Assembly (NCBI RefSeq): GCF_003691585.1
Contig: NZ_CP033169.1
Coordinates: forward strand, 1,860,001 to 1,924,000
Direction: 5' to 3'
From: Biomaibacter acetigenes
GTDB lineage: Bacteria > Bacillota > Thermosediminibacteria > Thermosediminibacterales > Tepidanaerobacteraceae
DNA length: 64,000 bases
Positions within the stretch are counted from its first letter, which is position 1. Every line of letters starts with the position of its first letter. The notes under the pieces were generated by a model. The model saw only the letters and a list, made by a program, of their open reading frames with translations. It had not been told where the DNA came from and did not search any database. This document shows, one piece after another, positions 25,416 through 46,566 of this stretch. The translations under genes were made by a program, and so were the position numbers.

Positions 25416-27314
25416 ATGAATGAAATATTGAATTTCCGCAGCCCAAAAATACAGTCAAAAAGTATCAAATATGCAGTTGCCCTCTGCCGGGTTTCTACTG
25501 AAGACCAGTTCACAAAAGGCCTTTCTGTCCCGGAACAGCGCCAGCGGATTCAGAAGTGGGCGGATGAACATAATGTAACTATTTTAAAATGGGTCGAACT
25601 CCACCATTCCGCTTATCGTGGGCTAGATGAAGATCCTGAAGTCCTGGAACTATTGGAATATGCCAAGAATAACGACAAAGTGTCTCTGTTTTTAGTCGAT
25701 GAAAAAAGCCGGTTCGCCCGCCGGAAATATCTTCGGGTGGTATGGCAAGAAGAGTTGCGCCGGCACGGTGTAACGGTCATCGGAGTCAGCGAGCCACAAT
25801 ATGACCGGAACTCAATTCACGGCATCTGGCTGGAGGGTATTTCTGAGACCAAAGATGAGGCCCGGAGTATCGAAACCGCCTATCATACCGTAAAAGGTAT
25901 GACAAGAAACGCCGGCACCCGGGACCCTGAGACAGGTTACTGCTATAAAAACGGTGGAATTGCCCCGGATGGATACATAAACAAACGGGTTATCAGAGGA
26001 AAAGACTCCCGTGGGAAGGATATTACCAAACTTCTATGGGAGATTGATGAAAAAAGGTCCTGGCTCATCCGGTATATGATCCTGGAACTCTGGTATCGAA
26101 AAAAAATGTCATATAGAGATGTGAGGGACCATCTCAATACTAAAGGTACCGAATATCAAAATAGAGAGGGTAGGCCCTGGTCAGTAACAACTATCAGGGA
26201 AATCTGTATGCGTGCCCTGGAAGGTGTTTATTCAGGCCTTTACTATTGGAACCGGACGGGGCGGGATCTTAGGGGAACCGGCCAGAAATGGAAAGATGCA
26301 GATGACTGGGTAATAATTGAGAATGCTCATCCGGCAATTATCACCCAAGCCGAATGGCAGGAATTAAAGGAGGTAATGGGACCTTTGGTGGAAAAAAGAA
26401 AGAGAAATATAATTCCTACCAGAACTGAAGACAGCCCATATCTTTTTAGCGGAGAAAATGCAGTAGGAGAGCCCATGTTTGTCTGCCTTAACTGTGGAGG
26501 TCCTATGAACAGCCAACAGATGGGAAAACATCGTTATATGTATTATGTATGTGCTAATTTCAAAAATAAAGGCAAGGCTGGATGTAATAAGGCTGTTGCA
26601 CTCAGGAAAGAAGAAGTGGAAGGAAAAGTGCTGGCGGCCATAAAGAGCCGTTTTACTCCGCAAAAGATAAAAGTAATAGTCCGGGAAATGAATGAAATAC
26701 TTAAAGAAAATAATAATGACCTTTACAAAGCTGAAAATCATTTACAAAAATCTATTATTGAAACAGAAAATGCTATAAATAATATTTTAGCCGCAATCCA
26801 GGAGGGAAAAGATTCAAAAGTTATTCCATTGCTTTTGAGCCAGCTCGAAAAACTCCAGGAGGAAAAACAGACCCTTGAAACTGAACTTGAGGAAATTCAA
26901 AAGGAAAGTCCAAAGGTAGATAAAATTGAAGAAGCCACAATCCTTGCTCAAGTCCAGAATCTAGAATCAATCCTTATGGATTCTACCACATCAAATCATA
27001 CCAAAAGAATGGCTGTGAGAAGCTTTATACGTCAATTACGCTTTAATCCCGATACCGGTGAGATATATGTTTATTTCTGGCATGATCCGACCGGGCAGGA
27101 TATTAAGCGTTTAATGCTAATGAATGGAAATAATCAAAATAAAAAAGAAGATGAAAGTTCATCTTCTATTCGTAATGAATTATCTGATAATGTAATGAAA
27201 AAAGGTGGTGCCGGGAACCGGAATCGAACCGGTATGGGTATCGCTACCCGCAGGATTTTAAGTCCTGTGCGTCTGCCTGTGGCCCTCAAATCCGCATTTT
27301 TACTGGGTTTTTGA
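25416..27314 (+). CDS. large serine recombinase (phage integrase)
   Basis: 632 residues. The resolvase catalytic domain begins YAVALCRVSTEDQ with nucleophile Ser27; DEKSRFARRK follows near residue 95. Then a recombinase domain (about 185-300), a zinc ribbon with CLNCGG and CNKA Cys residues, and a long coiled coil (about 435-500). This is the typical integrase of prophage A. The last ~38 codons run through the tRNA-Leu fragment at 27204-27280 and into element B, so the natural C-terminus was probably altered by insertion there. Confidence 0.9.
   Translation: MNEILNFRSPKIQSKSIKYAVALCRVSTEDQFTKGLSVPEQRQRIQKWADEHNVTILKWVELHHSAYRGLDEDPEVLELLEYAKNNDKVSLFLVDEKSRFARRKYLRVVWQEELRRHGVTVIGVSEPQYDRNSIHGIWLEGISETKDEARSIETAYHTVKGMTRNAGTRDPETGYCYKNGGIAPDGYINKRVIRGKDSRGKDITKLLWEIDEKRSWLIRYMILELWYRKKMSYRDVRDHLNTKGTEYQNREGRPWSVTTIREICMRALEGVYSGLYYWNRTGRDLRGTGQKWKDADDWVIIENAHPAIITQAEWQELKEVMGPLVEKRKRNIIPTRTEDSPYLFSGENAVGEPMFVCLNCGGPMNSQQMGKHRYMYYVCANFKNKGKAGCNKAVALRKEEVEGKVLAAIKSRFTPQKIKVIVREMNEILKENNNDLYKAENHLQKSIIETENAINNILAAIQEGKDSKVIPLLLSQLEKLQEEKQTLETELEEIQKESPKVDKIEEATILAQVQNLESILMDSTTSNHTKRMAVRSFIRQLRFNPDTGEIYVYFWHDPTGQDIKRLMLMNGNNQNKKEDESSSSIRNELSDNVMKKGGAGNRNRTGMGIATRRILSPVRLPVALKSAFLLGF
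27204..27280. repeat. attachment-site copy of tRNA-Leu 3' part
   Basis: 77 bp match 46490-46566 with one mismatch (27242 C versus 46528 T). It contains the tRNA-Leu sequence from the encoded CCA end through anticodon to the D-arm, then diverges. It marks the left junction of element B and lies inside the 3' end of the recombinase reading frame. Confidence 0.9.
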
Positions 27315-27456
27315 CCTTCCCACATGCTCCAGGCACACAGGATTATTATTTATATTCAATATATCACATTTTGTCTATTTTGTAAATATAGTTTATCTAT
27401 CCCGAAAATAAATCCCAGTAAACCGGTTTTAATACCGATCCAAAGTTTTAAGTAGT

Positions 27457-28239
27457 TCATTTCTTCAGATGTTCTTCAACATGCTTCCACATTTCTTTTT
27501 CGGCCTCTTTTCCAAGACCTAGCTTTTGTGTGGCACGATATTGTGCTAGATATGCCATAAGTTCAATATCATCTTTCGTGAATTGTGTGCCTCCTACAAT
27601 CGACATACCACATACGTTTTGCTGCATGTGCGTGGCTTCGTGTACCAACAAGGCAGCAGCATTCTTCGCCAGCCATTCTTTGTCACACCTGGAATTTATC
27701 CACATATTATAGGAATCTGTGTTAAAAATTACAGTACCATCGGAAACAACCGCAGCGTCGTATCGTTCTTCAGTGTCAGCTTTACCTAGTTTTATGTTTT
27801 TAACATAACTTAATACGATTCTATATTCATTCGGAGTCTTATTTTTTAATACTTCCAATGCTTCAGTTATGAATTTTTTGAAGTCATCTGGGCCATCTAT
27901 TGGCGGTGTTTCAAGGTCAGTTTCCGTCCAATACCGGTTTACCAATTCTGCAAATAATGGTAATTCAGGTTGTTCTTGCGGTAATTCCGGTTTTTCTTCA
28001 GGTTTTGAGTTAACGTAAATAATATTTGTCGAGCTATCATAATGTATATCTACGCCCAGAGCTTCAGCTATTGTTCGAAATGGTACGAGAATATAACCAT
28101 TTACCACACGTGGAGGAATATTGCATTTTAGCGGCGTACCATTGACAAGTATTGTATAATCCTCCTGTGCTGCATATACCACAGTTGCCATAATCATAAG
28201 AGTCATTAAAACTATTGTGAGTTTTCTTTTCAAGCTCAA
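27457..28239 (-). CDS. secreted metallopeptidase-like protein with copper-amine-oxidase N domain
   Basis: 260 residues. Signal peptide (about 1-23, ends VVYAAQ), then a copper-amine-oxidase N-terminal-like domain (TILVNGTPLK...VLVPFRTIAEALG-like, residues 28-80), a Pro/Glu hinge, and a domain with H200-E-A-T-H204 in LLVHEATHMQQ. So a cell-surface or secreted putative zinc protease. It sits at the left end of element B, the place where integrated elements carry cargo. Substrate unknown. Confidence 0.65.
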   Translation of the reverse strand: MSLKRKLTIVLMTLMIMATVVYAAQEDYTILVNGTPLKCNIPPRVVNGYILVPFRTIAEALGVDIHYDSSTNIIYVNSKPEEKPELPQEQPELPLFAELVNRYWTETDLETPPIDGPDDFKKFITEALEVLKNKTPNEYRIVLSYVKNIKLGKADTEERYDAAVVSDGTVIFNTDSYNMWINSRCDKEWLAKNAAALLVHEATHMQQNVCGMSIVGGTQFTKDDIELMAYLAQYRATQKLGLGKEAEKEMWKHVEEHLKK

Positions 28240-28326
28240 TGCCTCCTAAAATCGTTTTTAAGCATTGCTTTTTAGCGTTTTAAATTAAAACCATTTGCGA
28301 AGAAAAACTCGGTCTATAAAGGGCAT

Positions 28327-28551
28327 TTAAAGGGCCTGCAGGTTAATGCCGATGTAATCCGCTTTTGCCGTCGGCATTGGAATTGGCAATCCATCTTCCT
28401 TGAGGCCCTTTATGTGAATTTTTATGGCTTCAGCCATGTTCTCCCTGACCTCCTGTGGAGTTTTGCCCGTCGCTACGCAGCCGGGAAGGTCCGGTGAATA
28501 AGCAGAATAGTTGTTATCCGCCTTTTCGATTACGACCAGAAACCTGTTCAC
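28327..28551 (-). CDS. hicB: HicB-family antitoxin
   Basis: 74 residues. VVIEKADNNYSAYSPDLPG and CVATGKTPQEVRENMAEAIKIHI are the HicB RNase-H-like fold signature, ending in a PIPMPTAKADYI segment. Only the short HicB fold is present, without a C-terminal DNA-binding domain. Located 2 bp after hicA; together they form a type II toxin-antitoxin pair that may stabilise element B. Confidence 0.88.
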   Translation of the reverse strand: MNRFLVVIEKADNNYSAYSPDLPGCVATGKTPQEVRENMAEAIKIHIKGLKEDGLPIPMPTAKADYIGINLQAL

Positions 28552-28553
28552 GG

Positions 28554-28748
28554 CTATTTTCCCTCCTTTAGCCTGGCTTGCTTTAAAATGCTGTTTAAAG
28601 TGCCTGGAGCCAGGTCATCATTCAGATGACCGGCTATGGTGACACGTCCTGGTTTTACAGGATGCTTGAACTGCCTGTGGCTTCCTTTTTGGGTAACAAT
28701 ATACCAGCCATCCTTTTCTATTATTTTTATAATATCACGGACTTTCAT
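28554..28748 (-). CDS. hicA: HicA-family toxin (mRNA interferase)
   Basis: 64 residues. KVRDIIKIIEKDGWYIV, GSHRQFKHP with the catalytic His, and VTIAGHLNDDLAPGTLNSIL match HicA, a dsRBD-fold ribonuclease that cuts mRNA until bound by HicB. First gene of the pair. Confidence 0.9.
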   Translation of the reverse strand: MKVRDIIKIIEKDGWYIVTQKGSHRQFKHPVKPGRVTIAGHLNDDLAPGTLNSILKQARLKEGK

Positions 28749-28787
28749 CTTTGATTATCCTTTTCTGCAATAAAATTTTCCTTTCAT

Positions 28788-29018
28788 TTATTCATTATTA
28801 GTTTGTGTTTTATTTTCTGGTGTATAAACAAGAAGGTTAGCCGGTGTGCAGTTTAATACTTCGCATAGTTTATTTAGTGTATCAAAACGAATTCCATCCG
28901 ACTGATTATACCACAGTTTGGTCAGTGTGGACCTTGCAATGCCGGTTTTCACCGATAGGTCGCTGATATGCCGCACACCTCTTTCGGCCATAATTGTAGC
29001 AAGCTTGCATGTAATCAT
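28788..29018 (-). CDS. small XRE-type regulator
   Basis: 76 residues. MITCKLATIMAERGVRHISD then SVKTGIARSTLTKLWYNQ is a compact Cro/CI helix-turn-helix of the YozG type. GAGGTGAAC upstream. It faces away from the plus-strand gene at 29301 and could control both HicAB and the divergent promoter. Confidence 0.75.
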   Translation of the reverse strand: MITCKLATIMAERGVRHISDLSVKTGIARSTLTKLWYNQSDGIRFDTLNKLCEVLNCTPANLLVYTPENKTQTNNE

Positions 29019-29210
29019 TTGTTCACCTCCAATTATCTAAAAGCCAGGATTTTCGGATAAGCACACCCTTGGAGCTTTTATAAACGGCAGCGTCAAATGA
29101 ATTGCCGTGAACAAATCAGCCGAACAATTTGTCCATTCATATTGTATCATATGCAAGACAATTTATCAATAATTTATTTCAAATTGATTTAAATTTTTAT
29201 CATAAATCTA

Positions 29211-29239
29211 TTTACAAAATGAAGCATATATGCTACAAT
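29211..29239 (+). promoter_or_regulatory. promoter of the plus-strand 111-residue gene
   Basis: TTTACA (29211-29216), 17-base spacer, TACAAT (29234-29239). A short GCAGGA/TCCTGC hairpin (29252-29268) lies in the leader before the GGAGG of the gene at 29301. Confidence 0.65.
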
Positions 29240-29300
29240 ATATAATAGCAGGCAGGACAAAATCCTGCTAGCAAAAAATATTATATAGGAGGTTTTACAA

Positions 29301-29636
29301 ATGTTAGTATCAATGGAAAAGGTCAGGGAAAAACTGGAGGAAAGGAGGATGGGTATTAAAGCCAGACTGTGGGATTCGTTAACGGATGAGCAAATGATAG
29401 GAATTTACAGATATGCTACGGAAGAACAGGAAAAACTGCTGAGCGCATCGAATGATAAAAATGCAACAAAATGGGATTCATTGACGGACGAGCAGCTTAA
29501 AGTGATTTATCAAAGTTTAACAAAAGACCAAGACAGGTTATTGGACTATCTGGAAGACATGGAGGCTATAGAACAATTGCTACAGGACGGTGAATGGTCT
29601 CACTTACCAGAAGAAGACAAGTTAAATGAAGAATGA
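29301..29636 (+). CDS. 111-residue protein with internal duplication
   Basis: After a short basic start, two related units of about 35 residues appear: LWDSLTDEQMIGIYRYATEE and KWDSLTDEQLKVIYQSLTKD. Acidic and helical, no known family. Good AGGAGG ribosome site, own promoter and terminator, so a monocistronic gene at the left of element B, possibly divergent partner of the XRE regulator. Confidence 0.6.
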   Translation: MLVSMEKVREKLEERRMGIKARLWDSLTDEQMIGIYRYATEEQEKLLSASNDKNATKWDSLTDEQLKVIYQSLTKDQDRLLDYLEDMEAIEQLLQDGEWSHLPEEDKLNEE

Positions 29637-29644
29637 AACATGTC

Positions 29645-29676
29645 AAGCCCTGCATGATATGCAGGGCTTTTTCTTT
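29645..29676 (+). terminator. rho-independent terminator
   Basis: AGCCCTGCA and TGCAGGGCT form a 9-bp stem with a short loop, followed by TTTTCTTTT, 10 bases after the stop of the 111-residue gene. Confidence 0.85.
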
Positions 29677-29699
29677 TCCTTCGGCATCCGTAAAGCTGA

Positions 29700-29838
29700 C
29701 AAGGCTATCGGTAGGGCTTTTCTTCGGACTTTCATGTCAATTGCATGGGTATCCCGGTATTGGGCATGGAGCCGTGGGATTGGTTCTGGGTAAGCCCTGT
29801 CGCTTCATATGCGCACCGATTTTTTTTTTTTTTTTTTT
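29700..29838 (+). ncRNA. candidate structured RNA ending in a long T tract
   Basis: No plausible gene fits here. Long-range pairings appear: TCGGTAGGGCTT (around 29709-29720) with AAGCCCTGTCG (about 29792-29801) and ACCGA (29815-29819), enclosing inner GC-rich arms. The 3' side is followed by 19 consecutive T (29820-29838), a very strong terminator tail. It looks like a terminated small RNA; class not recognised. Confidence 0.4.
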
Positions 29839-29944
29839 AACGCTCACAAGGCTCGAATCTTGATACGGATGGATATATTGCAATGTTACGGAATATATGT
29901 TACTATCTAATTAATGGGATTATTTGGGATGGAGGTGCATTAAC

Positions 29945-30259
29945 ATTACTGCACGAAAAAGAATCGTATGGTTAATTTTCGCTATTTATATTATGGTTCT
30001 GGGCTATCTGGCATTCGGGTCTTTTGGTTGGTCTTTTACTGACCGCTTGGTAGCATTTGGTTTGCAAGTTCCCCAGTATGGTTACGGAACATATTATGTG
30101 CGTGAAAATTTCAGTCCTTTTTCTCCAGAAAAGGAGATGTACGGCACTCATCAGATCGGGTATGGGCCTAATTATGGTGGTTTCCTGGCCTATTCCGTGG
30201 GTGGCGCCGTCATTGCATATCTGCTTCAAGGCGGCGAGACAACGAAAAAACAGCAATAG
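29945..30259 (+). CDS. 104-residue membrane protein, ATT start likely
   Basis: The frame has no ATG, GTG or TTG compatible with the GGAGGTG at 29931-29937; the only nearby candidates are ATT codons (29939, 29945). One N-terminal transmembrane helix (VWLIFAIYIMVLGYLAFGSF), a Tyr/Gly-rich middle (PQYGYGTYYVRENF), and a second hydrophobic stretch (YSVGGAVIAYLL). Promoter TTGCAA-17-TACTAT lies upstream (29879-29907). Unknown function. Confidence 0.5.
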   Translation: MTARKRIVWLIFAIYIMVLGYLAFGSFGWSFTDRLVAFGLQVPQYGYGTYYVRENFSPFSPEKEMYGTHQIGYGPNYGGFLAYSVGGAVIAYLLQGGETTKKQQ

Positions 30260-30467
30260 TCTAAATAAATGGCAGGGTGTATTGGGATTAATTTTAGGGA
30301 TACTGTATCTTCTCGTAAACGCTCACCTGCACGGGCATTTTTAGAGTTAAAGAAGGTGCATCCAAGAAACAAGAAAATCGGAAAACCCGAAGCGCAAATC
30401 AACGCTATTACCGCCTGGCGTTCTCGGACTGGCGTTCTAAAGCGGAGGATTAAGGGGGCAGAGTGTT

Positions 30468-30587
30468 GTGAAAGGCAAATTTCTCAATATAGTCTTGTGG
30501 GTGTTGGTTGTGGCTGCGATGATAGCATTTCAGATGCTACAGGATTATCTGACGCTTGGGTCGCGTTTTGGGCGCCTGCCGTGGTAA
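30468..30587 (+). CDS. 39-residue single-helix membrane peptide
   Basis: GTG start after AAGGGGG, reading MKGKFLNIVLWVLVVAAMIA... to LPW. One transmembrane helix with a basic N-terminus. About 200 bp after the 104-residue membrane gene on the same strand and 65 bp before the terminator. Possibly holin-like or a small accessory of the neighbouring membrane protein. Confidence 0.45.
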   Translation: MKGKFLNIVLWVLVVAAMIAFQMLQDYLTLGSRFGRLPW

Positions 30588-30652
30588 ATGGCAAGAGATA
30601 ACAATTTTCGGCAGTAATTACAGTAATAATTAACGACTTGTATATAGCCTTT

Positions 30653-30684
30653 AAGGGTGTCTATTGAAACGACACCCTTTTCAT
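30653..30684. terminator. bidirectional terminator between convergent genes
   Basis: AAGGGTGTC and GACACCCTT form a 9-bp stem; T-rich on the plus-strand side (TTCATTTT). It separates the plus-strand membrane-peptide genes from the sigma-factor gene. Confidence 0.8.
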
Positions 30685-31418
30685 TTTCCCGCTATTTTAT
30701 CAATTGCCCTTTCTCTCTGTATTGCCACGCTTTCGACTGGGCTGGCCAGTTTTGAGCCGCTTCCCACAGGTTTGCTTGGGTCCCATGCCCGTATAATTGG
30801 CACTTCTTCGTCCAGAAGTTCATCCAGGAACACTTCAAACATGCCACGCACTTTATAGCTCCGTAAAATCTTTTCGGCATTGGTTTTTTCTTTCCAGGCC
30901 ACTTCTTCGCTTATGCCGAGTTTTTTGGCGATTTGCCGGATGTTGCAGCCGAAGCAAAAATAGACCATGATTTTATACTGCGTTTCGGATAATACGGCTT
31001 TTATCCGCTCCCACAATTTGCTGCCGTCGATTCTATTTTCGACCGGTTGGTAGTAATCATGCTCGTCGGTGATGATGTCTTCAAGTGTGTTGCAGTCTCC
31101 TTCGTCATTAAAAGCGATTGGCTCCTGTAGAGAGACTGTGTTGTTTTCACGGCTTAATGCACGGAGCATTTTTACTCTAATCCAGTAGGCTGCGTATGTG
31201 AGAAACGCAGCTCCACAGGACGGGTCGTAGCCGTCTATCGCCCTTACAAGCCCGAAAATGCCCTCATGGACGAGGTCTTCGATGTCCATATCCGGCCTCT
31301 GTGTGTAAATCTTCTTCGCCATGCGCCATATAAACGGCTTGTTCCGCAGTATCAATTCATTTCGGGCTTCTATGTCACCTTTTCGGGCCTTCACTGCAAG
31401 TTCCTCATTTGCTGCCAT
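30681..31418 (-). CDS. element-encoded sigma-70 family RNA polymerase sigma factor
   Basis: 245 residues from MAANEELAVKARKGD; this ATG has AAAAGGAG upstream, so the longer frame is not favoured. Region 2 is clear: IEDLVHEGIFGLVRAIDGYDP and FLTYAAYWIRVKMLRALSRE (about residues 40-90). Region 3/4 follows, with IRQIAKKLGISEEVAWKE as the helix-turn-helix (about 155-175). A C-terminal ~60-residue tail is unusual. It could direct transcription of the element's own late genes. Confidence 0.82.
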   Translation of the reverse strand: MAANEELAVKARKGDIEARNELILRNKPFIWRMAKKIYTQRPDMDIEDLVHEGIFGLVRAIDGYDPSCGAAFLTYAAYWIRVKMLRALSRENNTVSLQEPIAFNDEGDCNTLEDIITDEHDYYQPVENRIDGSKLWERIKAVLSETQYKIMVYFCFGCNIRQIAKKLGISEEVAWKEKTNAEKILRSYKVRGMFEVFLDELLDEEVPIIRAWDPSKPVGSGSKLASPVESVAIQRERAIDKIAGK

Positions 31419-31440
31419 GCCCTTTTCGCTCCTTTTGCTG

Positions 31441-31857
31441 TCAGGCATTCGCTCGGGTATCCCGACGGCTGTCTGCCTCCTGTGGTATTCGTTTCTGCAT
31501 GTCCCTGCCGCTCCACAGATTTGCAAGCCCGAGATTGGCCGCCACCGCAACAATAAGTTCACGACGCAGTCGAAAAAAGGTCCTTTCGCTGACGTGCATC
31601 TCGGCGCAGGTGCGCTGCCAGGGTTTGTTCTGTACGTATAGAAGCTCGTATAACTTCCTGTGGCCTTCGTTCAAAACTTCCAGGGTTTTTGCCGCAGCTC
31701 TTATAATGCGCCACATGTGGGCTGCTTCGGCGCATGATACGATTTCGGTAAAAGATATTTCAGATATTGAGTCCATATCCTGCAGTCTCTTGCTGTATTT
31801 CTCAACGTTACGCAATTCGTGCTCTATGAAATTGAAAACGGCTTTATCAAGTTTCAT
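31441..31857 (-). CDS. RinA/ArpU-like regulator
   Basis: 138 residues. N-terminal helices, then KLYELLYVQNKPWQRTCAEMHVSERTFFRLRRELI, the sigma-region-4-like HTH of RinA-type phage regulators. It lies 22 bp upstream of the sigma-factor gene on the same strand, with GAAAGGAGG before the ATG, so the two are probably co-transcribed. Confidence 0.65.
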   Translation of the reverse strand: MKLDKAVFNFIEHELRNVEKYSKRLQDMDSISEISFTEIVSCAEAAHMWRIIRAAAKTLEVLNEGHRKLYELLYVQNKPWQRTCAEMHVSERTFFRLRRELIVAVAANLGLANLWSGRDMQKRIPQEADSRRDTRANA

Positions 31858-31888
31858 GCTGCCCTCCTTTCGTAATCGAAAGGAAAAG

Positions 31889-31909
31889 GAGGCCGTTTTA
31901 AACGGCCTC
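31889..31909 (-). terminator. terminator of the large structural-type operon
   Basis: On the minus strand GAGGCCGTTT pairs with AAACGGCCTC with almost no loop, followed by CTTTTCCTTT. It ends the operon that runs from 39.2 to 31.9 kb. Confidence 0.7.
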
Positions 31910-31911
31910 GA

Positions 31912-32916
31912 TTATCTCCCACCTAACCGCTGCATCATCGCCTTCATACGGGAGGATTTCTCAGGAGACAACATGCCGAGACGTTGCAGATACAATCGCC
32001 ATACTGGGTCGGCCTGCATCCAGAAAGGTACCGTCCCGCCAAGAACAGACTGGAAATCCGGCGAAGCGAGATAATCCCTCACAGCCTGGTCTTCCTGTCC
32101 GCCTGTAACCTGTTTGTATAGATTGTAAAGTTCGTCAACAGTCGGTACGTTAGCAATAGGACCGACGTATTCCGCAAACCCGGAAGGAGTCCTGCTCATG
32201 GCCTCCGGCACATTGGCGTTTGCCGTTGAAGCCATTTGCGTTCCAGCAGTAACATCAATATCCGTCGGCGGTGTCCCTATGGTTTGCATAGAAATCCCGG
32301 GCGAAGTAGATGTGCCAGACGATGGTGATAACCCAGACGATGTTGAAGACGACCCGGGCATCAAACGGTTTTGTATGGCCTTTGTTCTCTGTGAATTGGA
32401 TTCAGCACCGTTGCCCGCATTGCCACTACCTAGCCCTAGTGCAATAGATGTAGATGTTGAAGGTCTTGCGGAGTTCGGGTTGTTTCGTTCATCCGATGCA
32501 CGGAAAGACGACAATGTTTCCGGTGCCCTCGATACTATATTAGAACCGGGCGAAGCGCTTTTAGGCGCAGAACCGCCACCAGTTCCGGAATTTCCGGATG
32601 ATGCGGGCGCAGCTTTAAAAAGGTCCGGGTTTTCCCGCTTGAACCTTTCAGCGGCCTCCGGATTTGATAATGTCTGTCCGCTGGCTTCCTTTTGCTGAAT
32701 GGCCCGGGCATATGCCTCTTTGCTTCCGAAGCCGAAATAGTTTTTACCATAAGGACTACTACCCGATGAGGCACTGTCGCTTGTCGAAGGTGCTGGTGCG
32801 CTTGTCTTCGACGTATTTTTCACACTAGAACCTGCAATACTCTCGTTGAGTTTTTTGGTAATCGCCGTTTTTCGGGCGGTTGCGGCACCGCCGCCAGTTC
32901 CGACTTCAAATGCCAT
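31912..32916 (-). CDS. Ser/Thr/Pro-rich putative virion-associated protein
   Basis: About 334 residues from MAFEVGTGGGAATARKT; GAAAGGAGACG is upstream. The N-terminal ARKTAITKKLNES is like the N-terminus of the 668-residue protein (LRKTVLKERIGS). Next is YGKNYFGFGSKEAYARAIQQ, then a long Ser/Pro/Gly-rich disordered region, and a folded C-terminal ~90 residues (VDELYNLYKQVTGG... WRLYLQRLGML). No family recognised. Last gene of the large operon. Confidence 0.5.
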   Translation of the reverse strand: MAFEVGTGGGAATARKTAITKKLNESIAGSSVKNTSKTSAPAPSTSDSASSGSSPYGKNYFGFGSKEAYARAIQQKEASGQTLSNPEAAERFKRENPDLFKAAPASSGNSGTGGGSAPKSASPGSNIVSRAPETLSSFRASDERNNPNSARPSTSTSIALGLGSGNAGNGAESNSQRTKAIQNRLMPGSSSTSSGLSPSSGTSTSPGISMQTIGTPPTDIDVTAGTQMASTANANVPEAMSRTPSGFAEYVGPIANVPTVDELYNLYKQVTGGQEDQAVRDYLASPDFQSVLGGTVPFWMQADPVWRLYLQRLGMLSPEKSSRMKAMMQRLGGR

Positions 32917-33026
32917 TTTTAACGTCTCCTTTCGATATGTGAATTTTGTGGTAGTTGTAAATACTCCACAGCGGTAAATACCGCTACGGCTGAAATGCAA
33001 GCACCGTCAGCCGGTCTTGCGGCCGA

Positions 33027-33350
33027 TCATTCATCGTCGTATTGGCGGCTATAGTTCCCTATCCTTCCCTGCTGAAAATCTGCTTCAAGCATTTCTTGTT
33101 CCTTCTGGGTTATGTTAATCTGTATAGCATTTTGAACCGACTTACTGCTACTTCCGCTTAAATCAAGACCGGCCACTTTGAACACCAGTTCAGCCGCTTC
33201 AAGGTCTCCCTCGCAGGCAAGTTTAATTACCGCCTGCAAAACCTGTGGAGCGGCCTCAAGGGCCTGTTCGGTAAGCTCCTGGCGTTTCTTTTCGGCTATC
33301 TCCACAGGGGTTGGTTCCTTTGAAGTTTTTGCCAATGAATGTCTGTTCAA
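33027..33350 (-). CDS. 107-residue helical protein, paralogue of its neighbour
   Basis: TTG start (LNRHSLAKTSKEPTPVE...) with AGGTGG just upstream. Core QVLQAVIKLACEGDLEAAELVFKVAGLD is clearly related to the GDVEAARLIFELAGL core of the gene it overlaps. Acidic end with IGNYSRQYDDE. The helical core resembles small-terminase-like or DUF proteins, but this is not certain. Confidence 0.5.
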   Translation of the reverse strand: MNRHSLAKTSKEPTPVEIAEKKRQELTEQALEAAPQVLQAVIKLACEGDLEAAELVFKVAGLDLSGSSSKSVQNAIQINITQKEQEMLEADFQQGRIGNYSRQYDDE

Positions 33351-33516
33351 TCTTTCCACCTTCCCTCGTCGGCAAAAGCCCTGCCAACTCAAAAATCAGC
33401 CTGGCAGCTTCCACATCTCCTGACTCCGCTTTTTGCGCCGTTATTTCTACAATCTTCAGCGTCTGTGAAAGAAATTCCCACAGAGCCGACAACTGCACCA
33501 ACTCCATTACGGTCAT
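33256..33516 (-). CDS. 86-residue helical protein, paralogue of its neighbour
   Basis: MTVMELVQLSALWEFLSQTL..., with AAGGAGGG upstream of the ATG at 33516. Contains GDVEAARLIFELAGLLP. The last 95 bp overlap the next gene in another frame, and the next gene's ribosome site lies inside this one. Both look like one duplicated helical unit. Confidence 0.5.
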   Translation of the reverse strand: MTVMELVQLSALWEFLSQTLKIVEITAQKAESGDVEAARLIFELAGLLPTREGGKIEQTFIGKNFKGTNPCGDSRKETPGAYRTGP

Positions 33517-39711: not shown

Positions 39712-39740
39712 AGTATCGCCTCCTTGATGGTCTCAACATG

Positions 39741-40025
39741 CTATAACATCGCATCGGTGCAGTATTTTTCTCGGAGAGCTTCATAAACTTCCTAAGGAAA
39801 CAGCCGCTTGACATCGTTTTCGAGTATCTCGGCAACATAGCAACCAAAATCAAACTGTATCCCGGAGCGATCATACCAGGCCCATAAAACCAATTCTGCG
39901 CCTTTTAAGCGGTTCTCCACAGGTGGCGGCTTCCCGGCAATAAGCAGAATCGAAAGGACAAAGCCGATAACCGCCAGCAGGACACTGTCAACCGCTGAGA
40001 GCGTTTTTACCACCTTCTTTCGCAT
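39741..40025 (-). pseudogene. duplicated domain gene interrupted by an amber codon
   Basis: An N-terminal transmembrane helix (SVLLAVIGFVLSILLIAG) is joined to ENRLKGAELVLWAWYDRSG, a clear copy of the EDRLKGAELVLQAWYDRSG domain of the next gene. At KRLFP the paralogue reads on as EEVFAAL, while here TAG (39792-39794) replaces the Glu codon and the frame continues as EVYEALREKYC to 39741. So it is a recent duplication with a nonsense change, or a gene using readthrough. Confidence 0.6.
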
Positions 40026-40042
40026 ACCCTGTGAGGATATTC

Positions 40043-40408
40043 TTATAAAACGTGCCGTCGGCGGGTATTCCCGCCTGTTGGGCCGTATTTTTTCACAAGA
40101 GCGGCGAACACCTCTTCCGGGAACAGCTGCTTGATGTGTGTCTGCCTCAGGGATGTGCTGACGTACCTGTCGAAGTCCAGCGGTGTGCCTGAGCGGTCAT
40201 ACCATGCCTGCAGGACGAGTTCGGCGCCTTTTAAGCGGTCCTCCACAGGCAGGGCGGCGTCATGCACCAGCGACCAGCCGACGGATTTGTAGACCTCCCG
40301 TTCATGGTATTCGTAGCTGTCCCAGGATATGAACTCCTTCATCCGTTCCCTGGCAAATTCAAGGGCCTCCGCGTAACTGCCGAAACGCTTATTGAGCATC
40401 ACTGACAA
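40043..40408 (-). CDS. 121-residue protein with duplicated domain
   Basis: MSVMLNKRFGSYAEALEFAR, then the EDRLKGAELVLQAWYDRSGT domain and LFPEEVFAALVKKYGP. Helical, soluble, no known family. Its stretch from about residue 50 on is duplicated in the following gene behind a membrane anchor. Overlaps the PD-(D/E)XK-like gene by 10 bp. Confidence 0.55.
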   Translation of the reverse strand: MSVMLNKRFGSYAEALEFARERMKEFISWDSYEYHEREVYKSVGWSLVHDAALPVEDRLKGAELVLQAWYDRSGTPLDFDRYVSTSLRQTHIKQLFPEEVFAALVKKYGPTGGNTRRRHVL

Positions 40409-40824
40409 CCTCCCTTTGCTTTCTGAAGATTTTCCAGAACCTCCGGTGGCACCTCACGGCCTCGAAGGGAATAGAGGAACCTGACAAAATCCGGTTCATC
40501 CATCTCCACAGGTTGTGGAATTCTATACTGTGCGATGTAATTCACCGGCCGGACTTCCCAGCGGGAAAAGTCACTGCTGTAAATCACCTGAAATAGCGGC
40601 AGCATGGCGTTGTTCGCCAGCGTTTCCAGGGCGTGCCAAGTAGTCCATGACGTGTGTCCCGAATAGGCGTGTTCATTCTTGTATTCAATTAAGGCCACAG
40701 GTGCTGCCTGGTCGTATTCGATGAGCAGCAGGTCGATGTCAACAGCCGGGCAATCAATACCATACAGCCGATGCCGCTCGCTGAGCGACACGTCTCTCTC
40801 GTGAGTGCGTTCAGGCTTTACCAT
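40399..40824 (-). CDS. PD-(D/E)XK-like nuclease
   Basis: 141 residues. AVDIDLLLIEYDQ followed by PVALIEYKNEHA gives the D-x(n)-E-x-K arrangement of PD-(D/E)XK nucleases (Asp about residue 30, Glu-Tyr-Lys about 47-49). An N-terminal helix carries RHRLYG. In an element with its own replication module this could process replication intermediates or act in defence. No close family recognised. Confidence 0.5.
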   Translation of the reverse strand: MVKPERTHERDVSLSERHRLYGIDCPAVDIDLLLIEYDQAAPVALIEYKNEHAYSGHTSWTTWHALETLANNAMLPLFQVIYSSDFSRWEVRPVNYIAQYRIPQPVEMDEPDFVRFLYSLRGREVPPEVLENLQKAKGGCQ

Positions 40825-41057
40825 TCCGGCTGCCTCCCGCCGGTGTAGGCCGGAACCGCACCCACCACTTCTTTGTTTACTTCCAATTCCACAGGTTCGC
40901 CGGAAGCAGGTACCGGCACGGCTCGGATGTACTTGCGGCCCTTCACCGGCGCCACCAGGGCATAGGCGACTATGGTGCCGGTGTCGGTGGCGGTATCGCT
41001 CTCGAAAAGACTCACCTGACCATCATGACTTACAAAGTAATTGGTTTTTAGTTCCAT
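40818..41057 (-). CDS. 79-residue beta-rich protein
   Basis: MELKTNYFVSHDGQVSLFES... mostly strands, ending GGRQPEW. The ATG has GGGAGGC upstream. Its stop overlaps the start of the nuclease-like gene. Unknown; first gene downstream of the putative origin on this strand. Confidence 0.5.
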   Translation of the reverse strand: MELKTNYFVSHDGQVSLFESDTATDTGTIVAYALVAPVKGRKYIRAVPVPASGEPVELEVNKEVVGAVPAYTGGRQPEW

Positions 41058-41099
41058 GATTCTGAAGCCTCCCTTTTGGTTTTATTGCATTTTTCATTT

Positions 41100-41520
41100 A
41101 AAATTGCCTCCAAAGCCTTGACACGACTGAGGTTTTAGGCTTTCCACAGGTTGATTAAAGCCGAAGTAAAAATCGGGTTTAAATCGTCTATCCTTACAGC
41201 CATGTGGGTTTAATGCAAAAGGTGACGTGTCACCTTTGAAAAAATGCCGTCAAACCCGCATGGGAGTAAGGTTACAGGGCAAAAAGTGACGTTTTATATA
41301 TAGATTTGGAGTATCCGTCACTTTGTCACCTTTTGTACCTAACTGTATAAGATACAGTTACTTTATCTATTTATACTTTTATACTTTTAAAAAAGGTGAC
41401 AAAGTGTCAGAAAAACAAAATATATATATATGTCACTTTGTCACCTTTGCCCTTAAAGCCTTGATACGCCTGGTGTTGTGGGCATTTCATAAATAAATTG
41501 AAAAGGTGATACGTCACTTT
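41100..41520. other. candidate replication origin with iterons and a cruciform
   Basis: At least six copies of an AAAGGTGAC / GTCACCTTT word pair occur near 41218, 41282, 41317, 41393, 41430 and 41502; several read as AAAGGTGACAAAGTGTC-like units. One sits as a 20-bp palindrome (41218-41237) inside a larger inverted repeat: CCTTAC with GTAAGG, CCATG with CATGG, GGGTTT with AAACCC (41192-41271). A separate palindrome AACTGTAT/ATACAGTT lies at 41340-41358. Directly repeated AAAGCCTTGA flanks the block (about 41112 and 41455). It adjoins the primase-polymerase gene. Confidence 0.65.
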
Positions 41521-43379
41521 TCGACCACCTTATACTTCCCTCGGCCAATTCTTTCCACGAGTTTTTTACCGACCAACCGCGCTAAAGCTTTCTTCACAGC
41601 TGCCTCAGTTAGATTTAATGCTGTGGAGATATCCTTGGGACTGGCAGGTTTTTTCGATGTCTTTAAAAATAACACGATTTTCTCACCTGTGCTACCGTCT
41701 GGTGTATCCTTCTGACAGGCCGCATTTTCCTGTGGTAATTCATATGTCCCGTGTTTTATGTCATTTAAAACAGCGTATAGCGGTTCTTCCGGGTGGTCCA
41801 GGCGGCCTATGACTTCGAGTTTACGGGCGTTCTTTTCATCGGTTACGTTGGCGAATTTTATATATACGTCAACAGACCCTAATAGCCCGGTCCCACCTCG
41901 AATTTCGTCACCATCTGTTCCACCTGACTTCCGAAAGTGATGAACCAAAACTACGCACGTGGTACTGTTATGTGTGGCTTCAAGAATAGGTGCCAGCTTT
42001 TCGACAATTTCCGCATTGTCATTTTCATCAGTTATGGGAATAATTTTGTCGAGAACGTCAAGGATGATTACGTCAAAAATATTGCTCGATATCACTTCGG
42101 CGATGGGTTTTACTCCGCCGCTCCGTGCCGTGTATGCAGAGATTACTTTTACGTTTGAGAGCGGTATGTTGCGGGTTCGCCAGGCCGCCTGCGGCTCCTC
42201 TGTGATAACTAAAACTTTTAAGTGATGTTTATGTTTCATATTCCAGTATTTCCCATCAGCTAGCGTCTTTCCATTAACTACCAGCTGTTCGGGTAGCCAT
42301 GTTAAATGTGCAAGTAGATCATGGATGAATCTGGATTTACCGCGTTTTGAAGGAGCTGCCAGCAAATGAACTGCGCCTCGGTAGAGGATACCTTCCCATA
42401 AGGGCTCTGCATCCGGGACTTGATTGAGCCAGTCCTCGTAGTTGACCGCCTGTGCCAGCAGCCAGTTACCGTCCCTTTCAGCTTCTGTGTATGAAACAGC
42501 CGTTCCTCGCTCCAGCGCGTGTCTGGCACAGTCAACAGCGAGCTTCCAGGAGGCTGCAGGACTTCTTCCGGCGGTCTTGGCCCGGTGAACAGCACTCCCG
42601 TAAACGATTTTGGCAACGGTTTCCAGGTCTTTGAAACCGAATTCCACGAGTTTTCGGGCAAGTAAATACTCCATCCCGGAACGGTCGATGCCGTCGGTGC
42701 GGGCTTCAAACCAGTGCCCATACAAAAGATGGTGAATATCGGGTACGACCTGGTCGGCGGCCTTCACCAGGGCTTGGACTTCGGTATCGGAAGGGATTGG
42801 ACCCAACTCTGTGGTTAAGGACTCGTTTTGGGCGTCGAAAAGCTCCCGAACAAAACTTTCAAGCTCAGCCTGCCGGTCATAGATTTCGGTCGAAGTACCC
42901 TTCAGGTGGTTTCCAGTAATTGTAAAATACCTATCAGCGGTGTAAACTTCAATGTTACCCGATTTTCGGCCAGACGGTAATCTGGATTTGTCCTGGACCT
43001 TCGCCAGGATGTGAAGTCCATGACCGCTTGGCGACAATTCAGTGTAACTATCGATTTTGTTTATAATCTCTCGTGCCCACGACTGGATCTCTCCGGTGTC
43101 ATTAATACACCCGTCAACGTCGATGCCCACAAACGAGTCGGTACCCGTGAACACAAAGCCCAACCCATCGTATTCGCCGGTCTCGAGTGCGGTCAGGGCC
43201 TCGTCAAATGTGGCCCAATTTGTTGAATCAGTTACGGAAGCGGGTTTGCCGGTCCTCGGATTATGCGGGATTTTGGTCGGTCTTTCGTTTTCACGATTAG
43301 TGTAACGCCACACCACCCACTGTGGATATTGCCTTAATTCATTTGGGATGTTGTCGAAATTACCCGTTACATTGGTCAT
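41514..43379 (-). CDS. primase-polymerase / helicase replication protein
   Basis: 621 residues if the ATG with GGCAGGTG upstream is used. The N-terminal domain (NIPNELRQYPQWVVW, KIPHNPRTGKPA, FVGIDVDGCI with catalytic acids, GHGLHILAKV) matches NrS-1-like primase-polymerase folds of phages. A RepA-like AAA ATPase follows, with Walker A APSKRGKS and a DVIILDVLDKI Walker B. A winged-helix C-terminus (KDISTALNLTEAAVKKAL) ends it. It should start and unwind element DNA at the adjacent iterons. Confidence 0.8.
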   Translation of the reverse strand: MTNVTGNFDNIPNELRQYPQWVVWRYTNRENERPTKIPHNPRTGKPASVTDSTNWATFDEALTALETGEYDGLGFVFTGTDSFVGIDVDGCINDTGEIQSWAREIINKIDSYTELSPSGHGLHILAKVQDKSRLPSGRKSGNIEVYTADRYFTITGNHLKGTSTEIYDRQAELESFVRELFDAQNESLTTELGPIPSDTEVQALVKAADQVVPDIHHLLYGHWFEARTDGIDRSGMEYLLARKLVEFGFKDLETVAKIVYGSAVHRAKTAGRSPAASWKLAVDCARHALERGTAVSYTEAERDGNWLLAQAVNYEDWLNQVPDAEPLWEGILYRGAVHLLAAPSKRGKSRFIHDLLAHLTWLPEQLVVNGKTLADGKYWNMKHKHHLKVLVITEEPQAAWRTRNIPLSNVKVISAYTARSGGVKPIAEVISSNIFDVIILDVLDKIIPITDENDNAEIVEKLAPILEATHNSTTCVVLVHHFRKSGGTDGDEIRGGTGLLGSVDVYIKFANVTDEKNARKLEVIGRLDHPEEPLYAVLNDIKHGTYELPQENAACQKDTPDGSTGEKIVLFLKTSKKPASPKDISTALNLTEAAVKKALARLVGKKLVERIGRGKYKVVEK

Positions 43380-43384
43380 GAACA

Positions 43385-43582
43385 TCACCTGCCAGTAATT
43401 TTACAGTCATCCGGTAGCTTAATCTTGAAAAATTGTTCAAATTCGCTAACGGGTATCAAAATCTTCCAGTTGTGCGGTTTAATTCCATGCAGCTCGCCGT
43501 TGTAAAAGTAGCCTTTTATAGTGCGTTCACTTAATCCGGTGAGTTGAGCAATTTCCTTCGGCGTTAGGAAAAGCTTTCTCAT
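43385..43582 (-). CDS. AlpA/excisionase-type HTH protein
   Basis: 65 residues with LTPKEIAQLTGLSERTIKGYF, a MerR-like winged helix of the excisionase family. Overlaps the next gene by 4 bp and precedes the primase-polymerase. Likely a directionality factor for the integrase or a transcription regulator. Confidence 0.65.
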   Translation of the reverse strand: MRKLFLTPKEIAQLTGLSERTIKGYFYNGELHGIKPHNWKILIPVSEFEQFFKIKLPDDCKITGR

Positions 43583-43800
43583 CTATAGTCCACCTCCCTG
43601 TAACCGATTTTTGAAGCTAGCTGTCGGATTGCGATGGTGTCGTCGTAAATACCGAGCAGTCTCTTGCCGTGGCCTCTTGAAATCCCGGCAGCCCGACAGG
43701 CGGTAGAAAAACCGATACCGCCAAAATCTCTCTTGATACGGCGTAAAATTTGCGGGTCCCTTGTTCGGACAAATTCGTCAATCAACGTGTGTAAACGCAT
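43579..43800 (-). CDS. 73-residue HTH-like protein
   Basis: MRLHTLIDEFVRTRDPQILR..., with GFSTACRAAGISRGHGKRLLG as a possible helix-turn-helix. Basic, AGGTGG upstream. First gene of the replication operon under the promoter at 43.87 kb; may autoregulate it. Confidence 0.5.
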   Translation of the reverse strand: MRLHTLIDEFVRTRDPQILRRIKRDFGGIGFSTACRAAGISRGHGKRLLGIYDDTIAIRQLASKIGYREVDYR

Positions 43801-43864
43801 AAAACCACCTCATTGAAAGTCTCCAATCAGCGGGCGGCTAGTCCCGCAAAAACCACTACTTGTT

Positions 43865-43915
43865 TTACAATCCAAGTATAATACACGAGGGTATCTCGTT
43901 TTTATCAATTTTTTA
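43865..43915 (-). promoter_or_regulatory. early promoter/operator of element B
   Basis: On the minus strand TATTATACT-like -10 sequence and TTGATA upstream flank the palindrome ACGAG-ggtat-CTCGT (about 43886-43900). Two tandem TTGATAAAAA words and a CGAAATTTCG palindrome (about 43927) follow. The region lies between divergent operons and is the likely control switch. Confidence 0.5.
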
Positions 43916-44101
43916 TCAACTTTTTACGAAATTTCGTTTATTCCCTTTTTTCAAGTCGATTTTAGCACAAAACAACCTTTCAATCCTGCCATGTCTCTGC
44001 CAAGTTCAACTTGTGGTTTTATTACACGGTTTATCTTGACTTAGTAAATTTGGTGAGATACTGAAGCTAGATATTTCAAGGCACAGGAGGCAATGTAAAA
44101 T

Positions 44102-44956
44102 ATGCTTCAAACTTTTGTTGTGAGTTTTTACTTTAATCCGCTAAAGCACCAGGAAAGGTTATTGACCGGTGGAAAGGATAAGAAGGTCCAGGCAGGGCAT
44201 TTCCTTCGAAAAGCTGTAGAGCTTGTACTTGCCGAGGAAAACGGCCATTCGGAAGATGAAGTCCGGGAATTCTTTCCGGGAGATAACGAAAAGGAAAAGA
44301 CTGCCCACCTGTGGAGTTTATTCGAGGCATGGTTTTCAACCATACCGCCAAATGCGGCCATCAGAAAGAGCTTTCCACAGAAAGGGCAAGAGCGTAAATG
44401 GGACCCTGATTACCCGGTGAAAAAACTCGAGTGGCCGAATACGCCCGCAGGAGCATATGCGGCGGTGATGTACAACGACCCTTATTTCAGCCATATAGCG
44501 AAAGAATTGTTTTTCCAGGATGTATGGCTGCCTGTATTCGCAGCGTGGAACAGGTGCCGGATACTGCCCTATCGCGGCGGCTGGCTGGTCGATGCGGGCA
44601 GCGAATATGACGCCGCTTGCTGCGAAGCACTGCTGTTTATCCAGTTCAACAGGCGGCCAAAATGGAAAGTGTGCTCGAACCCGAAGTGTCTCAAGGTCCA
44701 TGACGGCAATGAATGGAAATGTGCGAAGTGTCGAGGTCAGGTAAGGCGTTATATTCCACCTGTGGAGAGGACGGAGGAGATGAGGTTTCTGGACCGAATC
44801 AGGCGGGCCAAATGCGATGGGATTATCGGTGAAAAGGATTATGCCGGTCTGAAAGCCCTTGTTGATAATGGAGAGCTTTTAAAAGCGCAGGAGCGTTACA
44901 GCCAGCTGAAAAAGGAACATGCCATGCGAAAACGTGCTGCGTCATTCAGGCGATGA
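44102..44956 (+). CDS. 284-residue protein with zinc ribbon
   Basis: N-terminal domain (MLQTFVVSFYFNPLKHQERL) of unknown fold, a central YDAACCEALLFIQFNRRPKW region, and a zinc ribbon CSNPKCLKV...CAKCR (about residues 197-217) before a basic tail. The layout resembles CGNR/ABATE-like regulators. It is the only long plus-strand gene in the right half, divergent from the replication operon and preceded by AGGAGG. Probably regulatory; not certain. Confidence 0.55.
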   Translation: MLQTFVVSFYFNPLKHQERLLTGGKDKKVQAGHFLRKAVELVLAEENGHSEDEVREFFPGDNEKEKTAHLWSLFEAWFSTIPPNAAIRKSFPQKGQERKWDPDYPVKKLEWPNTPAGAYAAVMYNDPYFSHIAKELFFQDVWLPVFAAWNRCRILPYRGGWLVDAGSEYDAACCEALLFIQFNRRPKWKVCSNPKCLKVHDGNEWKCAKCRGQVRRYIPPVERTEEMRFLDRIRRAKCDGIIGEKDYAGLKALVDNGELLKAQERYSQLKKEHAMRKRAASFRR

Positions 44957-45097
44957 CATTATTCCCTCCACAGGTTTGCGTTCCGTACTGATTGCGCATA
45001 CGACACCGTTATATACCCTCCCAAAATGTGGTGCGACACTGCCCAACCTGTGGTATAATAATATCGAAGCATGTTTTTGATTCCTGTGGCCTCTCCC

Positions 45098-45120
45098 GGC
45101 CCTGCTCTACAGGGCCTTTC
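45098..45120 (+). terminator. terminator after the zinc-ribbon gene
   Basis: GGCCCTG and CAGGGCC 7-bp stem with 5-base loop then TTTCC, about 140 bp after the stop of the 284-residue gene. Confidence 0.55.
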
Positions 45121-45131
45121 CTATTAAAGCA

Positions 45132-45160
45132 AAAAACCCGGCTTGAATTGCCGGGTTTTT
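45132..45160. terminator. bidirectional terminator
   Basis: AAAAACCCGGC and GCCGGGTTTTT form an 11-bp stem with a 7-base loop. It separates the plus-strand gene from the convergent integrase operon. Confidence 0.85.
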
Positions 45161-45201
45161 CGGTAAGCACGCCCTTACAGCTTCTGCGGGCCTGCCGCCT
45201 C

Positions 45202-45369
45202 CTATTCCCTTTCTTTTACGGTATAGCTGAGCAGCGCTTCCATGATTTTCTTTTTGTAAACCGGTTCGAAATTCCAGTCGAGCTGCAGGATGTTATCCAG
45301 TGCGTTCAGGATTTCATCCGCCAGTTTTTCCTTCGCCGTCATTTTGCCCGCTTGCATAATTCCCGCCAT
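45202..45369 (-). CDS. 55-residue protein coupled to the integrase gene
   Basis: MAGIMQAGKMTAKEKLADEI..., helical, ending TVKERE. The ATG follows the integrase TAA by 3 bases and uses an AGGAAGGTG inside the integrase end. It may assist recombination or be an unrelated accessory. Confidence 0.5.
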   Translation of the reverse strand: MAGIMQAGKMTAKEKLADEILNALDNILQLDWNFEPVYKKKIMEALLSYTVKERE

Positions 45370-45372
45370 TTG

Positions 45373-46308
45373 TTACACCTTCCTCTTTCGATGGTTTTTT
45401 CGAGGAAGGAGCGAATTGATTGGCGAAACGGCGGAATTCATCCGGTGCAGGTCCTCGTTTGAAAAGTTCACGTAGCGCTTTGTCATAGCCAGAGTGGTAT
45501 GGCCCATGGTGCGCATCAGGCCCAGTTCGTATCCTCCGTTTCTCAGGTAATTTATTGCATACAGATGGCGCAGGGAATACGGCGTGAGTTTCACTCCGAG
45601 TTTTTGGCCGTACATCTTCAGCCGGTCCCGCCATGTAAAACGGGACATCATGGTGCCTTCGCTCGAACAGAACACCGGCACGTCGTTTTTCCATGACGGG
45701 TGCCTTGCCGAAATGAGCTTTCGGACCGCTTCGCAGGTCTGAGGCATTATCGGCAGCGTCCTTGCGGTCCTTGTCTTGGATACTTCCGCCCGCACGGTCA
45801 CTTCCAGATTTCTGAAATCAAAATCCGAAATGAGTAGCTGCAGCGCTTCCTTCGGTCGAATGCCCGTGTCGAGTTCAAGGACCAGCATGGCGTAGTCTCT
45901 CAAACCCGCAAATGTGGTCTGATCCGGCAGCTCCAGCAGTTTTTTGAGCACTTCCGTATCAATGTCCACAATTCGAGCTTCGGCCTTCCGGTGTTTGAAT
46001 CCTTCCAATGGGTTTTCGAAGAAAATTCCTTCGTGAACGCACCAGTCAAAGAACGCCTTCAAATAGACCAGCCTCAAATTAAACGTAGCGGGTTTCACCG
46101 GCTGCGCCATATACTCCAGGACACAGGGCTTTAAACCGGTCTGGCTGTATGCCGTCGGATACCGCTTGAAAAACCTTGTGATGTGCTGGCGGTAGTCGTT
46201 AAGCGTCGTTTCACTGATTCCCTGAGCCTGCTTCCACCACAGGAACTGTTGTAAAGCCTCCTGCCATGTGGCGGGTGTATCTCTGGTGATTTTTACTACT
46301 TTGGGCAT
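45373..46308 (-). CDS. tyrosine recombinase (integrase of element B)
   Basis: 311 residues. SAM-like N-terminal domain (WQEALQQFLWWKQAQGISE, residues about 14-95), then the catalytic domain: Arg in DTGIRPKEALQLL, Lys in the beta hairpin (EVSKTRTARTLP), H-x-x-R in TPYSLRHLYAI, HTTLAMTKRY with His and the nucleophile Tyr. It lies about 180 bp from the intact tRNA-Leu, so it catalyses integration at the 77-bp attachment sequence. Confidence 0.92.
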   Translation of the reverse strand: MPKVVKITRDTPATWQEALQQFLWWKQAQGISETTLNDYRQHITRFFKRYPTAYSQTGLKPCVLEYMAQPVKPATFNLRLVYLKAFFDWCVHEGIFFENPLEGFKHRKAEARIVDIDTEVLKKLLELPDQTTFAGLRDYAMLVLELDTGIRPKEALQLLISDFDFRNLEVTVRAEVSKTRTARTLPIMPQTCEAVRKLISARHPSWKNDVPVFCSSEGTMMSRFTWRDRLKMYGQKLGVKLTPYSLRHLYAINYLRNGGYELGLMRTMGHTTLAMTKRYVNFSNEDLHRMNSAVSPINSLLPRKNHRKRKV

Positions 46309-46489
46309 AATAAAAACCCTCCCGCAAAATGTTTTTGTGGGAAGGTCAATTTTACTACACAGGATTTGCGATTTTAAACAATCCTGTGGGTATAAAAAAC
46401 GGGTTCAGGCACACAGGATTATCGTAAAATACCGTGAAATATTGTGGATTGGAAAATGCTGTAAATGCCCTGAAACCCTTGATTTTGCT

Positions 46490-46566
46490 GGTGGTGCCGG
46501 GAACCGGAATCGAACCGGTATGGGTATTGCTACCCGCAGGATTTTAAGTCCTGTGCGTCTGCCTGT
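46490..46566. repeat. attachment-site copy inside tRNA-Leu
   Basis: Partner of the repeat at 27204-27280, 76 of 77 bases identical. The sequence 5' of it in the tRNA (GTTCCGCCAC on this strand) is unique to the intact gene, so the element side carries the 3' part that restored the tRNA. Confidence 0.85.

Follow-up and report, generated by a model that had tools for sequence, protein, structure and literature searches.

What kind of mobile element sits in a tRNA-Leu gene with its own integrase, its own replication genes and large virion-type proteins, and with no recognizable capsid gene? The question is raised by a 19.3-kb segment of the Biomaibacter acetigenes chromosome, here called element B, which spans positions 27204-46566 of the 64,000-nucleotide stretch that we analyzed (hereafter the window; NCBI RefSeq assembly GCF_003691585.1, contig NZ_CP033169.1, positions 1,860,001 to 1,924,000 of the forward strand). 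The answer that we favor, with slightly better than even confidence, is that B is a helper-dependent phage satellite: an integrative element with its own replication, descended from a short-tailed (podovirus-like) phage and supplying its own ejection proteins.

As a bounded integrative element, B is real. It is framed by a 77-bp tRNA-Leu repeat with a single mismatch, from which the initial annotation had already drawn its boundaries, and the proximal copy belongs to an intact tRNA-Leu(taa) gene (46492-46580, minus strand). The longest exact repeat common to the two flanks measures 38 bp; in 200 shuffles none exceeded 15 bp. The tyrosine integrase, the primase-polymerase/helicase with its iterons, the RinA-like regulator and the HicAB pair, all previously named from the sequence, were confirmed (Table 1). 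The iteron field beside the primase gene contains about nine GTGAC/GTCAC cores and is the probable replication origin of B. Two earlier descriptions fared less well: a "full" sigma factor was generous, because only region 2 passes in Pfam, although membership in the sigma-70 family is secured by a TIGR02937 score above the cut-off; and the PD-(D/E)XK label of the 141-amino acid (aa) protein was not borne out, its sole match being a family of unknown function.

The three large proteins of 362, 668 and 1056 aa had been called virion-type, and their homologues do sit inside the virion modules of complete phages. One such phage region, in a genome of the same phylum (G046), starts with a TerS-position gene and TerL, continues, further on, with a 424-aa protein, portal, scaffold and capsid, and closes with a tail protein, proteins of 182, 484 and 1057 aa and a convergent metallopeptidase gene (TerL was assigned by phrog_2; portal, scaffold and capsid were named from sequence and position). 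Five of these genes have homologues in B, and no other gene of that virion region does. Identity is 46% over 68 aa for the TerS-position protein, 51% over 126 aa for the 424-aa protein, 48% over 1023 aa for the 1057-aa protein, 35% for the 484-aa protein and 28-30% for the metallopeptidase. The L039/L016 region and the IMG/VR contig behind L017 agree with this picture. The 362-aa protein is of low complexity, and its homology concerns the C-terminus, related to a protein whose gene immediately precedes the portal gene in the related phages.

Two further features of these proteins were observed. Virion proteins of the 362-aa and 668-aa types (window 31912-33000; L039 14479-15180 and 2927-4714) have in common a motif about 40 residues long, GFGSxEAYAxAIxxxxAxGxxLSxPxAAxxFKxxxPxLF, which is possibly a common assembly or packaging module. 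In most related phages (L009, L017, L036, L040, L025, L026), the gene combining a Cu-amine-oxidase-N-type domain with an HExxH motif lies next to the giant gene in convergent orientation, and in G108 and G378 it still adjoins the fossil ends of giant genes.

The structure model of the 1056-aa protein is all-helical, and its Foldseek matches are viral "large polyvalent protein associated domain" proteins, one of them named LPD38 (E from 1.7e-8 to 8e-4). The same model gave no match below E 0.4 against the PDB, and no Pfam family, LPD domains included, rose above cut-off by sequence in this protein or its relatives. For the 668-aa model the top match was a phage "DNA transfer protein", with "internal virion proteins" lower down. 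Polyvalent proteins of the phage type are likely packaged and injected alongside DNA, and LPD38 is confined to that type (PMC5512222).

What B lacks is equally informative. Scans with PHROGs and Pfam found no homologue of TerL, portal, scaffold, capsid, tail or holin genes, and tblastn with three related phage regions found no fragment of TerL, portal, scaffold, capsid or tail genes; portal, major capsid and tail are thus absent, as first thought. The parallel claim that there is no terminase is true of the large subunit only, because a TerS-position protein is present (33027-33392), together with a second TerS-like ORF (33256-33516). Relaxase and VirB4/coupling ATPase families, also reported missing, gave no match in Pfam scans of the ORFs. 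A terminase or capsid gene within B, or homologues found always in complete prophages, had been named as evidence that would speak against a satellite: neither TerL nor a capsid gene was found, a TerS-like gene was, and the closest homologues (46-48%) do lie in complete phages, with more distant ones in capsid-less elements.

The two TerS-like ORFs (33027-33516) overlap in different frames and both match one part of one phage protein; they may represent either a tandem duplicate or a frameshifted copy.

Relatives of the giant protein were collected with a profile of the C-terminal core of its family (A3; motif DYGxLTxxE...PFYxWxRxNxP), which retrieved 137 from viral contigs and, in B's phylum, a few per hundred genomes. 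Of 98 loci, 46 have a phage tail or head-completion marker next to the giant gene; B, G117, G386, G532, G135 and G447 have none. Three bounded elements from unrelated bacteria (G386, G117 and G532) combine perfect attachment (att) repeats, an integrase, a primase/helicase and a giant gene, with no TerL, portal or capsid. The G386 element (16.6 kb; 45-bp repeat at tRNA-Arg) also encodes a 734-aa protein, and its giant gene is split by a contig end, in frames that fail to join. G117 (12.6 kb; 67-bp repeat at tRNA-SeC) has a D5-type primase and a 948-aa giant protein. G532 (17.1 kb; 39-bp repeat) has primase and helicase genes and proteins of 717 and 964 aa; the former, adjoining the giant gene, belongs to the 668-aa family (E 2.4e-6).

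A similar assignment of the 734-aa protein of G386 was rejected, no similarity having been found; neither this protein nor the 948-aa protein of G117 has close relatives in IMG/VR. Neither the G117 nor the G386 genome, each searched as a whole, has a phrog_2 terminase (G046, as positive control, yields its own); the G532 genome has one, 2 Mb from the element. The G544 contig 7 and G447 loci lie at contig edges, the former with a phage tail-hub-type marker. A search for a close relative of B through its primase was fruitless, as the matches were limited to the primase domain (30-45%).

In a maximum-likelihood tree of 94 giant-protein cores, B nests among proteins of complete phages (G312, L017, G046) with full support (100/99), G117 joins L059 and the decayed copy of G135 (98/91), and G386 and G532 are placed elsewhere, on long branches. 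The capsid-less label requires three changes on this tree, at least two of them forced by well-supported branches. As B falls within a phage clade and the other three lie outside it, the capsid-less state was reached at least twice; such elements represent a state attained more than once, and not one old family.

We infer that, upon induction, B excises and replicates from its iterons, and that RinA and the sigma factor switch on its late genes. B DNA would be brought to the large terminase and capsid of a helper by the TerS-like protein or by a packaging site; the 668- and 1056-aa proteins would enter the helper particle and be ejected into the next cell before the DNA. With its own proteins going ahead of the DNA, the satellite would thus control delivery and first contact, and the shell would be borrowed. 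More tentatively, and at somewhat less than even confidence, we propose a recurrent, independently evolved satellite class with no capsid genes and with injected proteins of its own (a giant one of polyvalent type, joined in some members by a coiled-coil ejection protein), both DNA and proteins being delivered by helper particles. The original idea of a satellite-like element carrying internal virion proteins and no capsid accordingly stands as the best-supported reading, through the three additional capsid-less elements and the fold matches of the 668-aa protein, with the closest homologues in complete phages as its counterweight.

Several other observations weigh against a satellite. No packaging site was identified in B, and no helper was identified either, the host genome yielding no G046-like portal. 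The TerS-like ORFs overlap one another in different frames and show no recognizable DNA-binding domain, so they may be non-functional. Confidence in the two structure models is low (mean predicted local distance difference test score, pLDDT, 63 for the 1056-aa and 57 for the 668-aa protein), and the intactness of the B genes could also stem from recent integration. Finally, the giant gene served as query in collecting the comparison elements, so its presence in every one of them holds by construction and is no evidence in itself; the informative parts of the set are the shared absences, the intact integrase-replication-att sets and the 668-like partner kept in G532.

The position of B within a phage clade, the closest homologues of all its kept virion genes in complete phages, and the overlap of the TerS-like ORFs are in line with a different origin, namely a tidied prophage remnant: a podovirus-like prophage would have lost its capsid and packaging genes by deletion and rearrangement, and the rest would persist without transmission. 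True remnants of the giant family do exist (G135, G378, G108), with giant-gene copies that are truncated or carry stops, unlike that of B. All large B genes are open and full-length relative to their homologues, no leftover piece of TerL, portal, scaffold, capsid or tail was detected, and three unrelated elements, each with perfect att repeats, have this gene set too. In addition, the phage order is TerS-TerL-362-portal-capsid-668-1056, whereas B runs from its replication genes through 668, 1056, TerS-like and 362 to RinA and sigma; this order cannot be derived from the former by one deletion and requires rearrangement. We regard a remnant as unlikely, and still as a serious rival, given that full phages hold the nearest homologues and that neither helper nor packaging site was found.

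Distinctly less probable is an autonomous integrative replicon, of the integrated phage-plasmid type, whose large proteins would stay unpackaged and act in the cell, for example by excluding or poisoning phages of that same type on entry. Such a replicon would suit the failure to find a helper and the presence of HicAB, for maintenance, beside complete modules for replication and integration, as it would the fact that two of the three similar elements reside in genomes without a terminase of the tested family. On the other hand, transfer genes were not found, RinA and the sigma factor point to late, virion-type expression, and exclusion alone would hardly account for the kept ejection pair and the TerS-like protein. 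Least credible, indeed very improbable, is a full virus with an unrecognized capsid in the 362- or 284-aa protein or in small ORFs: many B ORFs belong to no family of known function, but the 362-aa protein is of low complexity and shares its C-terminus with a portal-neighbor protein, the related phages have an ordinary capsid, and no packaging ATPase was found.

The neighboring prophage A (about 43.6 kb; window 1-27280, G000:C1:1843693-1887280) had been suggested as a possible helper. The 3' end of tRNA-Leu is repeated exactly over 21 bp at the left end of A, and the gene for A's large serine recombinase (25416-27314) ends at the tRNA fragment, which places A and B in tandem at one tRNA-Leu. 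A and B share no DNA beyond the att site and, at the protein level, only a very weak RinA-like match (0.006), so that there is no sequence support for A in particular as the helper. A resident helper of the G046 type was likewise discarded, as no portal homologue was found in B's own genome. That genome has a further large-terminase gene (G000:C1:1650555-1652042), probably part of another prophage. An IMG/VR provirus, L002 (IMGVR_UViG_2893925626_000003; 62,315 bp), has a size that fits A and B merged as one virus.

Table 1. Features of element B, with positions in the window
Feature	Position	Strand	Evidence
Distal att copy, left boundary	27204-27280	-	3' part of tRNA-Leu; 77-bp repeat, 76/77 vs 46490-46566
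Secreted Cu-amine-oxidase-N-type domain + HExxH, putative metallopeptidase, 260 aa	27457-28239	-	PF07833 1.1e-9; 28-30% to giant-gene neighbors in G046, L017
HicB antitoxin	28327-28551	-	PF15919 5.8e-11
HicA toxin	28554-28748	-	PF07927 2.6e-24
Cro/C1-type regulator	28788-29018	-	PF13443 1.5e-19; phage transcriptional regulator PHROGs
Sigma-70 family factor	30681-31562	-	PF04542 3e-14; TIGR02937 78.5 bits (cut-off 42.9); phrog_351 1.6e-31
RinA-family late regulator	31441-31857	-	TIGR01636 36.6 bits (cut-off 31.9; NCBIfam)
362-aa protein	31912-33000	-	C-terminus 51% over 126 aa to G046 40253-41527; 48% to L039 14479-15180
TerS-position protein, no ATG (TTG or GTG start)	33027-33392	-	46% over 68 aa, 3.6e-11, to G046 protein directly before TerL
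Second TerS-like ORF, 86 aa, ATG	33256-33516	-	45% over 38 aa to same G046 protein; DNA-level confirmation
Zinc-ribbon protein, 145 aa	33513-33950	-	Weak zinc-ribbon matches, all below cut-offs
Giant virion protein, phage large-polyvalent-protein type, 1056 aa	34039-37209	-	48% over 1023 aa to G046; fold matches
Coiled-coil protein, ejection/internal-virion type, 668 aa	37231-39237	-	35-38% to G046, L017, L039; fold matches
Two paralogous small proteins	39792-40025, 40043-40408	-	64% over 44 aa; no family
141-aa protein, possible nuclease	40399-40824	-	phrog_16357 1.2e-14, function unknown
Iteron region AAAGGTGAC/GTCACCTTT	41218-41521	.	Direct and inverted repeats
Primase-polymerase/AAA_25 helicase, 624 aa	41514-43388	-	phrog_13901 4.5e-61; PF13481 3.9e-13
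HTH_17 excisionase-like protein	43385-43582	-	PF12728 6.6e-9; phrog_66 excisionase 1e-4
284-aa protein	44102-44956	+	No family in library scans
Tyrosine integrase	45373-46308	-	PF00589 1.2e-25
Proximal att copy	46490-46566	-	Within intact tRNA-Leu

Compared with known systems, B resembles most obviously in its general layout the phage-inducible chromosomal islands (PICIs), including the staphylococcal pathogenicity islands (SaPIs), which have an integrase, a primase-type replication module with iterons, an excisionase/regulator and a size of about 15-19 kb, and some of which encode a TerS homologue without TerL (PMC6092414). An integrase and a replication module are both present in B, with an own origin that the iterons suggest. 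PICIs are defined by having no phage structural genes, and their att sites are never used by prophages (PMC6092414); B keeps homologues of phage virion genes (its 362-, 668- and 1056-aa proteins) and shares its tRNA-Leu with prophage A. By these two tests B is not a PICI. The size given for PICIs among these criteria is about 15 kb, and B measures 19.3 kb. No Stl- or AlpA-type induction system was recognized in B. Induction, interference and packaging that depend on a helper are further PICI traits; for B, satellite function is what we propose. Nor is it a complete temperate phage (TerL, portal and major capsid being missing) or, from the Pfam scans of its ORFs for relaxase and VirB4/coupling ATPase, an integrative conjugative or mobilizable element.

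The G046-type podovirus-like prophages (G046, G312/L039 and IMG/VR 3300033998_000199) share with B the TerS-position, portal-neighbor, 668-like, 1056-like and metallopeptidase genes; unlike B, they have TerL, portal, scaffold, capsid and tail genes, another gene order and another replication module. The LPD38 phage-type polyvalent proteins are, like the 1056-aa protein, large multidomain proteins of virion modules, and proteins so named are among the fold matches of the 1056-aa model, which has no Pfam LPD match by sequence; they were reported from phages and conjugative elements, in a paper that does not use the word "satellite" (Iyer et al. 2017, PMC5512222). If our proposal is true, B and its analogues, at 12-19 kb, would offer a handle on the giant polyvalent proteins of virions, which are largely of unknown function and which could there be deleted and followed separately from the other virion components.

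Known satellites either lack structural genes or encode the shell and rely on a borrowed tail. We found no satellite with ejection-type proteins only in the open literature, whose partial coverage makes this weak evidence of novelty. Capsid-forming PICIs and the MulchRoom/MiniFlayer satellites are, like B, satellites with part of a virion gene set, but that part comprises their own capsid, portal and both terminase subunits, and the capsid-forming PICIs borrow tails (PMC10690885). Capsid, portal and TerL gave no hidden Markov model or tblastn match in B, which is thus the reverse of the capsid-forming set, with ejection-type proteins and no capsid. If the satellite reading is true, control over DNA entry and over the first minutes in a new cell can be worth more to such a parasite than a capsid of its own.

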